Shown: positions 17,377-21,536 of the stretch, piece after piece | Numbering within the stretch: position 1 is the first letter of the stretch | Layout of the letters: each line of letters starts with the position of its first letter | Position numbers and translations under genes: made by a program | From: a virus | Reading direction: 5' to 3' (one strand) | DNA: 25,972 bases | Virus record (IMG/VR): IMGVR_UViG_3300017776_000159 | Span: 1-25,972 of that record | Notes under the pieces: generated by a model | What the model was told of the DNA's origin: nothing | Seen by the model: only the letters and a program-made list of their open reading frames with translations | Database searches by the model: none

Positions 17377-17586
17377 ATGTTTGACATAAAACGAGCGATC
17401 AATATCGGGATGGCGCTGTACAACTTGAGTCATGGTGAGTTGTCAGAACGGTCTGGTATTACCGCAAGCGCATTAAGCAACTTAAAGGGGAAAGGCAATC
17501 CAACTCTGCAGACAATGCAAAAACTGTCAGAGACATTTGGCGTGCCTTTATCAGTATTTATAGGATGGGGGGAGTATGGACAATAA
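17377..17586 (+). CDS. Cro/CI-like (XRE family) transcription regulator
   Basis: A 69-residue single-domain HTH_3 protein. The helix-turn-helix spans about residues 19-40 (SHGELSERSGITASALSNLK), followed by the helix NPTLQTMQKLSETFGVPLSV. There is no dimerisation or peptidase domain, so it resembles Cro more than full-length CI. It lies beside divergent promoters whose -35 elements are covered by palindromes, which suggests it controls both its own operon and the leftward recombination operon. The ribosome site is weak (TAGGAAAAAAG). Its end overlaps the replication initiator by 11 bases. Presence of a Cro-like protein does not prove a temperate lifestyle; no integrase is visible. Confidence 0.87.
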   Translation: MFDIKRAINIGMALYNLSHGELSERSGITASALSNLKGKGNPTLQTMQKLSETFGVPLSVFIGWGEYGQ

Positions 17587-18250
17587 ACCATTATTCGCAG
17601 TCATACCTGCGGCAGTATTCTACGACACAAACCTGAGCGCAAACGCTAGGCTGTTATTTGGCGAGCTATCTGGACTGACGAGCTCTCAAGGTTTTTGTTG
17701 GGCAAGCAACCAGTATTTTCAGAAGCGTCACAATGTAAGCAGGCGCTCAATCACTAAGTGGATTGGCGAGCTAGCAGATGCCGGCTACATCAACGTGCAG
17801 TGCTTTCTGGATGAGAACCAGATTCAGCGCAGACATATCTACATCACTGAAACTGGGTTGGGTATGGAAGATAAGTTCATGGGGGGTGGAAAAAATGTTC
17901 ATGGGGGGGATGAAGAAATGTTCCATACCCCCGTGAAGAAAAGTGCCACATTAATAGAAAAGGGTAATAATAAATCTAATAATAAAACTATTAGAGGCGC
18001 ACGCCCAACTGTTGATGAGGTTCAGGACTATTGTGATCAGAGAGGTAATGGCATAGATGGTCAGTATTTTTGTGATTACTATGGGGCAAGAGGGTGGAAA
18101 ACGAAGGGAGGCACACCGGTACAAGATTGGCAGGCGTGCGTTAGGACTTGGGAGAAGGGTGACCAAAAGCGTAAACAGGCCAAAGGCAAGGATAGTATTA
18201 AGGCATCCTCGATCGAGGATAAAATCACTGATAGATCATGGGCGATGTAA
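17576..18250 (+). CDS. Replication initiation protein, winged-helix type
   Basis: A 224-residue protein. Residues about 1-95 form a winged-helix domain (SANARLLFGELSGLTSSQGF, then NVSRRSITKWIGELADAGYI) like the HTH_36 domain of plasmid and phage initiators. A Gly/Lys/Asn-rich linker is followed by a C-terminal segment (PTVDEVQDYCDQRGNGIDGQ and YYGARGWKTKGGTPVQDWQA ending CVRTWE). That segment matches phage replication O/DnaT-like proteins, which bind the origin and recruit the host helicase. GGGGGAG precedes ATG 17576. The iteron-like array at 19779 is a candidate target. Confidence 0.8.
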   Translation: MDNKPLFAVIPAAVFYDTNLSANARLLFGELSGLTSSQGFCWASNQYFQKRHNVSRRSITKWIGELADAGYINVQCFLDENQIQRRHIYITETGLGMEDKFMGGGKNVHGGDEEMFHTPVKKSATLIEKGNNKSNNKTIRGARPTVDEVQDYCDQRGNGIDGQYFCDYYGARGWKTKGGTPVQDWQACVRTWEKGDQKRKQAKGKDSIKASSIEDKITDRSWAM

Positions 18251-18590: not shown

Positions 18591-19042
18591 AAGATGTAAT
18601 TGTTAGCACTGAGATGGATTTCATTAATGCGTTCAACACGCTCAGCAGTTTGTGGCGAGACAAGAAGTGGCTCAAGATTAACGTGAGCACTAGGCGCACT
18701 CGCAGTGGTCCACAGAATAATGCACTGCATTTATTTTTCCGGAATCTTGCGGAAGATCTAAACAATGCCGGCTACCCGTCACAGATTGGATTCGCAGGCA
18801 GGCCCAACACCATCGAGGTTGACTGGACTGAGCAGAGCGTTAAGGAGCTGTGGAAGGCGATACAAAATGCCATGTTTCCTGAGACTGCAGGCAAGACCAG
18901 TTACCTTGAGCGCGGGCAAATCAACATGGTGTACGATGTGCTGTATGCGCACCTGACCAAAATTACTGATGGCACGGTACGGACAGCATTCCCTAGTTGT
19001 GAGGGACCCATGCTTGCAAACACGGAGAGACGAGGTGGCTAA
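18587..19042 (+). CDS. ninB: NinB recombination mediator
   Basis: A 151-residue protein of the NinB (lambda Orf) family, a recombination mediator that binds SSB and single-stranded DNA. Visible family features are RTRSGPQNNALHLFFRNLAE in the N-terminal half, then VDWTEQSVKELWKAIQNAMF (the 'W....VKE.LW' pattern), ERGQINMVYDVLYAHLTKIT and the closing TAFPSCEGP. It overlaps the previous gene by ATGA and NinG by eight bases. The ninB-ninG order is preserved from lambda, though the genes between them in lambda are missing here. Confidence 0.85.
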   Translation: MKDVIVSTEMDFINAFNTLSSLWRDKKWLKINVSTRRTRSGPQNNALHLFFRNLAEDLNNAGYPSQIGFAGRPNTIEVDWTEQSVKELWKAIQNAMFPETAGKTSYLERGQINMVYDVLYAHLTKITDGTVRTAFPSCEGPMLANTERRGG

Positions 19043-19442
19043 AAAAACATTGCGGGCTCAGTGCTTGGAGAAACTGCAGAAACTGTCCCGCATGAAGTCA
19101 GCAGATGACAATGGGTATTGCCAGTGCGTGAGTTGCGGGAAAAGTGTCCACTGGAAGGAGTGCGATGGTGGGCACTATATCCCCAAGGGTAGCTCTAGCT
19201 ATTGGAGCCTAGAGGAGTGCAACGTCTGGCCGCAGTGCAAAGGGTGCAATGGGTTTGGTATGCGCTACGGTTCTGCAGAGTCAGAGTACACGCTCTGGAT
19301 GATAGATTATTTTGGCAGAGACTTTGTTGATGAGATGCATCGAGATAAGCGCAAAGTCAAAAAAATGTATGCGGCTGACTATCGAGATTTACTGGATAAT
19401 TTTAATGAGCAGATTAAATTCCATGAGGAGAGATTGAAATGA
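19035..19442 (+). CDS. ninG: NinG (Rap-like) recombination endonuclease
   Basis: A 135-residue protein of the NinG/Rap family; lambda Rap resolves Holliday junctions and D-loops. Zinc-finger cysteines are visible as CVSC (31-34) and CKGC (68-71), with an HNH-like segment between them (ECDGGHYIPKGSSSYW, D44 and H47, then ECNVWPQC). The C-terminal helices (VDEMHRDKRKVKKMY) match the family. Start GTG 19035 is supported by GGAGA at good spacing; the frame is open to 18969 but would lie inside ninB. It overlaps ninB by eight bases. Confidence 0.88.
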   Translation: MAKKTLRAQCLEKLQKLSRMKSADDNGYCQCVSCGKSVHWKECDGGHYIPKGSSSYWSLEECNVWPQCKGCNGFGMRYGSAESEYTLWMIDYFGRDFVDEMHRDKRKVKKMYAADYRDLLDNFNEQIKFHEERLK

Positions 19443-20312: not shown

Positions 20313-20319
20313 ACTAACC

Positions 20320-20335
20320 GCCCCCGCAAGGGGGC
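20320..20335 (+). promoter_or_regulatory. Intergenic GC hairpin with GCAA tetraloop
   Basis: GCCCCC, loop GCAA (a GNRA tetraloop) and GGGGGC. No T-run follows, so it is more likely an mRNA stabiliser or processing barrier than a terminator. It is flanked by CTAACC upstream and AACCAAGGGGAA downstream. Confidence 0.65.
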
Positions 20336-20354
20336 ATAACCAAGGGGAAGTAAA

Positions 20355-20717
20355 ATGGAAAAAATATTTATGGGTTATAACCCGAAACTACCAGAGTACT
20401 GCAACATCGCTGACCGGCTTGCCGCGCAATGTTTGATCTCTGAGTTGTTGGCCGCAGAATGCACGGTGACCATCAATGACGGTGAGGATGATTGCCTTGA
20501 GAAGTCTTCAGACTACACTGAGATCCTGCAGGCTATGTCGAGCTCTGGTGAAGATGTTGTGGTGCCATTCGACAAAGACGGTAACAGCATGGGGTGGTTT
20601 TACCTGATCTACGATAACGGTTCAGAGCACAACCCGATGATCCTGATCAGCGACTACACCGCCAATAGTTTTTGCGAGTTGATCTGGAATAAGGTAGACG
20701 AGCAATTAAGTGTTTAA
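20355..20717 (+). CDS. Hypothetical early protein upstream of ribozyme
   Basis: A 120-residue acidic protein with four cysteines (EYCNIADRLAAQCLISELLA, then VVVPFDKDGNSMGWFYLIYD, and FCELIWNKVDEQLSV at the end). No family is recognised. The leader is AACCAAGGGGAAG. Its stop codon lies inside the 5' edge of the hammerhead ribozyme, so ribosomes finishing this gene would cover the ribozyme's first helix. Confidence 0.72.
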   Translation: MEKIFMGYNPKLPEYCNIADRLAAQCLISELLAAECTVTINDGEDDCLEKSSDYTEILQAMSSSGEDVVVPFDKDGNSMGWFYLIYDNGSEHNPMILISDYTANSFCELIWNKVDEQLSV

Positions 20718-20840
20718 CTCAACTGACGAGCTAGGGCGGTTCCCTAGCGAAACCTAGCGTTGACTTAACGATAACGGGTCATGCGGGAATCACGCCCAGA
20801 AGCTACAAGGGTGCCCCATGACCTCTAGGTCTTGAGAAAC
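20712..20840 (+). ncRNA. Hammerhead self-cleaving ribozyme, type I topology
   Basis: All elements of the hammerhead are present. Helix I is CTCAA (20718-20722) with TTGAG (20832-20836), extended by GTTT/AAAC across a two-base bulge. The core is CTGACGA (20723-20729). Helix II is GCTAGGG/CCCTAGC, seven perfect pairs closed by CGGTT. GAA follows at 20749-20751. Helix III is ACCTAG (20752-20757) with CTAGGT (20825-20830), starting with the required A-U pair. The unpaired C at 20831 is the cleavage nucleotide, so the cut falls between 20831 and 20832, 29 bases before ATG 20861. Helix III holds a 67-nt structured insertion. The loop GGTT of helix II could also pair with AACC at 20838-20841, resembling known stabilising contacts. 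No ribozyme protein partner is expected. Confidence 0.93.
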
Positions 20841-20860
20841 CAACTGAAAGGGGAAGTACA

Positions 20861-21142
20861 ATGAAAGCAATAACTTTATGCAAGCATATCAACAAGGCGT
20901 TTCCTAAAGCGAATGCGGTCACCTACAACGAGTGGACCGGTGAGGAGAAGGTTGATAAGTACCGTATCTGGTTCCGTTGCGAGGGCGAGTGCGCCCCTGA
21001 TGGAATGCCGCTACACGACTACTGGCAGGAATGGCACCCTGATGGGTTTCACCCTGACCTAAAGCGCTTGGTTGAGAAGCACGGGTTTTACCTTGAGAAT
21101 CACGATGCCGGCACGATGATGGCCTGCAGTCTAGACTGGTAA
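20861..21142 (+). CDS. Hypothetical early protein downstream of ribozyme
   Basis: A 93-residue protein rich in Trp, His and Cys (LCKHINKAFPKANAVTYNEW, then YRIWFRCEGECAPDGM and HDYWQEWHPDGFHPDLKRLV). No family is recognised; the Cys/His content might bind metal. Its mRNA leader is what remains after ribozyme cleavage: a 29-nt 5'-hydroxyl leader containing AAGGGGAAG before the ATG. Confidence 0.72.
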   Translation: MKAITLCKHINKAFPKANAVTYNEWTGEEKVDKYRIWFRCEGECAPDGMPLHDYWQEWHPDGFHPDLKRLVEKHGFYLENHDAGTMMACSLDW

Positions 21143-21494: not shown

Positions 21495-21501
21495 TCTAAC
21501 C

Positions 21502-21517
21502 GGCCCCTGCGGGGGCC
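21502..21517 (+). promoter_or_regulatory. Intergenic GC hairpin with TGCG loop
   Basis: GGCCCC, loop TGCG and GGGGCC, flanked by CTAACC and ATCAAGGGGAA. It has the same layout as the hairpin at 20320 with a different stem sequence, so structure appears conserved rather than sequence. Confidence 0.65.
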
Positions 21518-21536
21518 ATCAATCAAGGGGAATAAA

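Follow-up and report, generated by a model that had tools for sequence, protein, structure and literature searches.

Hammerhead ribozymes in phage operons are already known, and the closest described systems are the clustered hammerheads of phages and prophages together with the HHphage element of haloviruses HF1 and HF2 (PMC3088659). Like the family presented here, these lie in phage operons, cut shortly before start codons and occur several to an operon. According to the main text of that paper, clustered phage hammerheads cleave polycistronic RNA both in vitro and in E. coli, and in a halovirus early transcript a 5′ end has been mapped no more than 3 nt from the cleavage site of a hammerhead lying 13 nt upstream of a start codon; 4 of 18 hammerheads conforming to the consensus were inactive in vitro. 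These cleavage and transcript-end data directly support the proposal, developed below, of how phage hammerheads act. What role they play has been an open question since their discovery, and the present family makes that role testable, as the distance from cut to start codon is short and mostly fixed, several copies occur per operon and a hairpin occupying the same slot in sister phages provides a natural control.

The window analysed here is a 25,972-nt stretch of IMG/VR record IMGVR_UViG_3300017776_000159; coordinates given without a contig handle (L followed by a number) refer to it. A complete type I hammerhead can be read directly from the sequence of its plus strand at 20718–20836. Stem I is formed by CTCAA (20718–20722) and TTGAG (UUGAG in the RNA; 20832–20836), with two of the five pairs covarying, and the 5′ strand is followed by the catalytic core CTGACGA (CUGACGA, C3–A9; 20723–20729). 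Stem II and its CGGUU loop occupy 20730–20748, the seven base pairs (GCUAGGG/CCCUAGC) being contributed by GCTAGGG (20730–20736) and CCCTAGC (20742–20748). The core letters GAA (G12–A14; 20749–20751) come next, and then stem III, whose 5′ strand ACCTAG (ACCUAG; 20752–20757) starts with A15.1 and whose 3′ strand CTAGGT (CUAGGU; 20825–20830) ends with U16.1. C17 lies at 20831, and the hammerhead core sets the predicted cut between 20831 and 20832. All of the letters that define a type I hammerhead are present (C3UGANGA9, G12A13A14, A15.1–U16.1 and H17, at 20723–20729, 20749–20752 and 20830–20831), and three helices of 5, 7 and 6 pairs surround the core, with stem I as the open end. The TAA stop codon of the upstream gene (20715–20717) directly abuts the first base of the hammerhead, and the predicted cut falls 29 nt before the downstream ATG (20861–20863), which is preceded by a Shine–Dalgarno-like AAAGGGG at 20847–20853 (all plus strand). 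In aligned homologues, CUGANGA is invariant except at N7, the other core letters, GAA among them, are invariant except at H17, and compensatory changes are found in all three helices. A first-pass annotation of this DNA had reported the full set of conserved hammerhead nucleotides, the three helix lengths and an intergenic site with a cut 29 nt ahead of the next start codon, and each of these is borne out by our reading. Its identification of the element as a hammerhead is further upheld by the compensatory changes and by the kept placement ahead of start codons in many phages. It made no mention of the branched domain in stem III, of the pseudoknot or of the family of related intergenic hammerheads.

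The minimum free energy (MFE) fold of 20712–20842 is exactly the hammerhead structure, with the same helices as those read directly (−44.2 kcal/mol, z −2.8 against dinucleotide shuffles), and when natural flanks of as much as 150 nt are added the hammerhead fold remains 0–0.8 kcal/mol from the MFE, the energy of the pseudoknot being uncounted. Misfolding with the upstream coding sequence was considered and set aside, an alternative MFE appearing at one flank length and lying within 0.5 kcal/mol of the hammerhead fold. The fold penalties of +4.1 to +8.1 kcal/mol obtained for L082 are an artefact of an alignment gap in stem I. A paired-stem descriptor search of both strands of the window found this single site; in 400 random windows matched in dinucleotide composition, two sites were found with stems of at least 4/4/4 pairs and none at 5/6/6. 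A terminator scan reported no intrinsic terminator at the hammerhead, which is not followed by a T run, and there is no tRNA or tmRNA in the window.

Covariation was analysed in an alignment of seven distinct copies, representing around three lineages, with 43 predicted pairs. Across these, 96% of cells form pairs, and at 15 pairs both partners differ between copies yet still pair, six of the seven pairs of stem II showing such double compensatory changes. When the partner column was slid by 1–3 columns as a control, 35–43% of cells were paired and 0–1 double changes were seen. The RNAalifold consensus is essentially the same structure minus the pseudoknot. The pseudoknot itself is predicted to join GGUU of loop II (20738–20741) to the 3′ tail AACC (20838–20841, plus strand), on the basis of co-changes in relatives: in L007, a loop II of UGGUU is complementary to a tail of AACCA, and elsewhere loop and tail co-vary as UAGUU/AACUA, UGGU/ACCA, UGAU/AUCA, UUGCU/AGCAA and GGGU/ACCC. 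At least four Watson–Crick pairs can be formed in 40 of 42 distinct loop/tail combinations. In a control with swapped loops and tails, 39% reached four pairs, a figure made unclean by overlapping ‘types’, so that the alignment count is the better test; the frequency of the UAGUU type is biased, because one search pattern fixed TAGTT, with the tails unselected. The interaction would tie the stem I region to that of stem II as a tertiary contact, and pseudoknots of this kind have been described for all hammerhead types (PMC3088659, main text).

The first-pass annotation had suggested searching with covariance models, and Rfam cmscan gave no match to the window hammerhead. Two of the models that it had proposed, HH9 and HH10, are the wrong ones here. 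RF00008, run against the complete record, likewise gave no match, in a search that had no working positive control. The type I model RF00163 (Hammerhead_1) reports above its cut-off just one of about 26 clear relatives at eight loci, a plain hammerhead in L219 with 36.7 bits, and its score for the L172 homologue that carries the insert is 20.7 bits (E = 0.006), short of the cut-off of 34. Since this model misses nearly all clear relatives, its silence on the window is weak evidence, and hammerheads in viral sequence are probably undercounted, as the standard Rfam model misses most of the present phage family. Absence of a covariance-model hit and helices broken in homologous phages had been named in advance as signs against a hammerhead; the former is what Rfam returned, and the homologous helices proved mostly compensated, not broken. 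Other Rfam matches (sR32 at 9 bits, and miRNA and snoRNA families) lie far under their cut-offs and are attributed to chance, as are most of the matches in a first pattern scan for relatives, in which true hammerheads were few.

In the window copy, stem III carries a branched domain of 67 nt, which folds in the MFE structure as a three-way junction (20758–20824, plus strand). The first junction arm is the P4 hairpin CGUU-GACUU-AACG (20758–20770), in which the loop letters A, C, Y and U are conserved, and it is followed by a junction linker AUAAC (20771–20775) whose AUAA is invariant. The remaining arm (20776–20824) is made up of three successive helices: P5 (GGGUCAUG/CAUGACCU), which covaries and is followed by a bulged C; P6 (GGG/CCC), with a 5-nt bulge that starts with an invariant AA; and P7 (CGCCC/GGGUG), closed by the 11-nt loop AGAANNUACAN. 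Relatives of the domain were sought in IMG/VR by means of sequence letters and covariance models, and the same domain was found at the same hammerhead position in other phage contigs, namely in the L156/L157/L172 group and the L170 group. The gene surroundings of these copies are of two unrelated kinds at the least, and across them the helices of the domain show compensatory changes and its loops barely vary. The conserved unpaired letters are those of the P4 loop, AUAA, the bulged C, AA and AGAANNUACA; in seven related sequences, 18 of 27 unpaired columns in the domain are invariant as against 4 of 16 in P5. This pattern hints at a binding function but does not establish it, since the seven sequences represent only about three lineages. 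The domain is optional, since a bare loop III of 2–5 nt takes its place in related hammerheads, some of them in the same phage, and only one insert-bearing hammerhead was seen per contig. A covariance-model search of phage contigs found the domain nowhere but in hammerheads. In 84,980 prokaryote genomes, the insert motif gave 17 pattern matches, none of them inside a hammerhead and all in surroundings with no trace of the domain, and three copies of the domain gave no match to Rfam aptamer families at E values up to 10. In the copy in L157 the top pairs of P5 are broken. An insert-bearing copy in L182 (6642–6762, minus strand) has lost stem II altogether and retains an intact stem III domain; either this is a copy that broke in nature or the contig was misassembled. 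Stem III is extended in another way, by a long hairpin containing an internal GGTAATTTTTTTTACC-like segment, at L228 73–188, L227 6295–6410 and L184 6192–6307 (minus strand), in all three cases upstream of one particular gene.

The upstream gene (20355–20717, plus strand) encodes 120 amino acids and matches PHROG 22565, and the downstream gene (20861–21142, plus strand) encodes 93 amino acids with no PHROG or Pfam match; annotation assigned no function to the genes surrounding the hammerhead. Replication-type genes lie nearby (a replication initiation protein at 17576–18250 and NinG at 18969–19442), which suggests that the flanking genes may be early ones. The portal protein has its closest match in a virus of Octadecabacter (marine Rhodobacterales), at 49% identity, and then in a Sinorhizobium phage; a marine alphaproteobacterium is therefore the likely host, judging from these protein matches. 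No nucleotide relatives were found in the collection of named phages. Neighbouring slots of the window operon, after 20312 and after 21494, hold GC hairpins: the previous intergenic slot contains a GC-rich hairpin at 20319–20336 (module 20316–20337, plus strand), and the intergenic modules AACCGCCCCCGCAAGGGGGCA and AACCGGCCCCTGCGGGGGCCA (20316–20337 and approximately 21495–21536, plus strand) stand before AAGGGG ribosome sites. In the sister phages L124, L125, L130 and L153, which have both flanking genes, a plain GC hairpin of this type lies exactly in the hammerhead slot, and in L150–L152 the slot is occupied by a promoter-like stretch and then another gene. The window ribozyme is about 70–76% identical to those of the L156 and L170 groups, with the genes on both sides at the baseline for unrelated sequence. 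The finding of a homologous ribozyme between unrelated genes points to selection on the RNA module itself. In L156, L178 and L172, identical or 98% identical insert hammerheads follow nearly identical upstream genes and precede different downstream genes. Together with the hairpins of the sister phages, this suggests that hammerheads and hairpins are exchangeable modules placed at gene boundaries. A search for further hosts of one downstream gene returned only contigs already known to carry an insert hammerhead, plus one fragment.

Intergenic hammerheads of type I form a family in contigs of marine phages, to which the window copy belongs, and a family covariance model recovers many additional hammerheads in related contigs. 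Plain relatives, with a loop III of 2–5 nt, are common in the same kind of contig and are arranged in series between genes: seven lie within approximately 5 kb in L228, and at least six in L227 and in L184/L220. Series of 4–7 between consecutive small genes were noted in L228 (73–5060, minus strand), L227, L184/L220, L219, L233/L248 and L244. Of 57 cases scored automatically, near-duplicates from related contigs included, 53 have the predicted cut 23–40 nt ahead of a start codon, and the commonest value is 29. This spacing may in part reflect tight packing, being near the minimum required for the stem I strand, the pseudoknot tail and the ribosome site. In most relatives the 5′ end of the hammerhead overlaps the upstream stop codon or falls a few nt from it, and several upstream frames terminate at the UGA within the hammerhead core. 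Two relatives, L156 4664–4744 (plus strand) and L182 7524–7604 (minus strand), have the core UUGAUAA, in which C3–G8 is replaced by U3–A8, a natural swap that has been reported before (PMC3088659, main text). In many relatives the Shine–Dalgarno AGGAGG is part of a small hairpin that covaries and whose loop is GAGG or GAGGA, approximately 10–25 nt after the cut; examples from L156, L172, L170, L228 and others include AACCU-GAGG-AGGUU, AUCCU-GAGG-AGGAU and GACC-GAGGA-GGUC, pairing being kept throughout. The window copy has no such hairpin. A gene of the anti-restriction family PHROG 7245 adjoins the hammerhead series in L228 (3841–4719, minus strand), at L281 (15–551, plus strand) and in L170; hammerheads beside ardA appear in the main text of PMC3088659.

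We interpret the window element as a type I, pseudoknot-stabilised hammerhead that cuts the polycistronic phage mRNA in cis, and we put the probability of this at roughly 0.85. As the transcript emerges, the RNA would fold in the gap that separates the upstream stop codon from the next Shine–Dalgarno sequence and be cut after C17 (20831). The downstream gene would in this way gain an mRNA of its own, with a 5′-hydroxyl, a 29-nt leader and its ribosome site retained, and the upstream mRNA would be left with stems II and III, folded, at its 3′ end and a 2′,3′-cyclic phosphate as its terminus. RNase E is stimulated by a 5′ monophosphate, which a 5′-hydroxyl end does not have, and 3′ exonucleases are hindered by folded 3′ ends. 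Processing of this type would provide each gene with a separate 5′ end and, if it takes place in the cell, might be expected to influence mRNA stability and translation. The branched stem III domain most probably serves to stabilise the fold and the upstream 3′ end, or may be bound by a protein or ligand. Against cis-cleavage we count the silence of Rfam, the sister phages that lack the element, the broken copies in L182 and L157 and the published hammerheads that conform to the consensus and are inactive.

That the element merely resembles a hammerhead by chance, as the lack of an Rfam match to the window might be taken to imply, can be given negligible weight: no site of equal quality occurs in the 400 random windows, relatives are found at matching positions and the 15 doubly compensated pairs, covariation of this order refuting the idea in practice, agree with the first-pass judgement that chance assembly is improbable. 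A more substantial possibility is that the element is mainly a structured 3′ end or RNase site and a module boundary, interchangeable with GC hairpins, with self-cleavage incidental. Sister phages do have plain GC hairpins at the corresponding position, as does the window operon in others of its slots, and identical hammerheads are followed by different genes, so that the edges of the module fall on recombination joints. Yet the catalytic core letters, A15.1–U16.1 and H17 are all kept, though a hairpin would have no need of them, and covariation extends to the pseudoknot, whose sole use would be to align stems I and II; we regard this explanation as improbable.

Less readily dismissed, if still unlikely in our estimation, is the idea that the three-way junction in stem III acts as a natural sensor or aptamer that turns cleavage on or off in response to a metabolite, ion or other small molecule, or to a protein of phage or host origin binding there, which would make the element a naturally evolved allosteric hammerhead. 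Conservation concentrated in unpaired letters while P5 covaries is what is seen in ligand-binding RNAs, and the optional nature of the domain, set against the bare loops of related hammerheads in the same phage, and its restriction to one copy per contig would also suit a sensor. On the other hand, the domain matches no Rfam aptamer family, was never found alone in the phage contigs or the 84,980 prokaryote genomes searched and is known from few independent lineages, and the downstream genes differ between phages and share no common pathway. Cis-cleavage by a pseudoknot-stabilised hammerhead remains our preferred reading, and the conserved domain on stem III offers, within it, a specific candidate for how a hammerhead might be regulated in nature.

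Set beside RF00163 (Hammerhead_1), the window copy has the same core, helix order, predicted cut after H17 and open end at stem I, but adds the conserved branched domain to stem III and scores nothing with the model. With the hammerheads of PMC3088659, as described in its main text, the present family shares pseudoknots, U3–A8 cores and U10.1–U11.1 mismatches; relative to the clusters described there, it has up to seven copies in 5 kb and a cut-to-start distance near 29 nt (23–40). The three-way junction in stem III is not mentioned in that main text, and the domain, which was not found in Rfam or in the main-text literature examined, may be new. The discontinuous rodent hammerhead, cited in PMC3088659, likewise has one arm enlarged by an insertion through which control might be possible; it belongs to a mammalian transcript and its loop is very large, whereas the phage insert is compact, structured and conserved. 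Engineered aptazymes have the same layout, with a separate folded domain mounted on a hammerhead arm; in the window copy the stem III domain, a possible sensor, is placed in just the same way.
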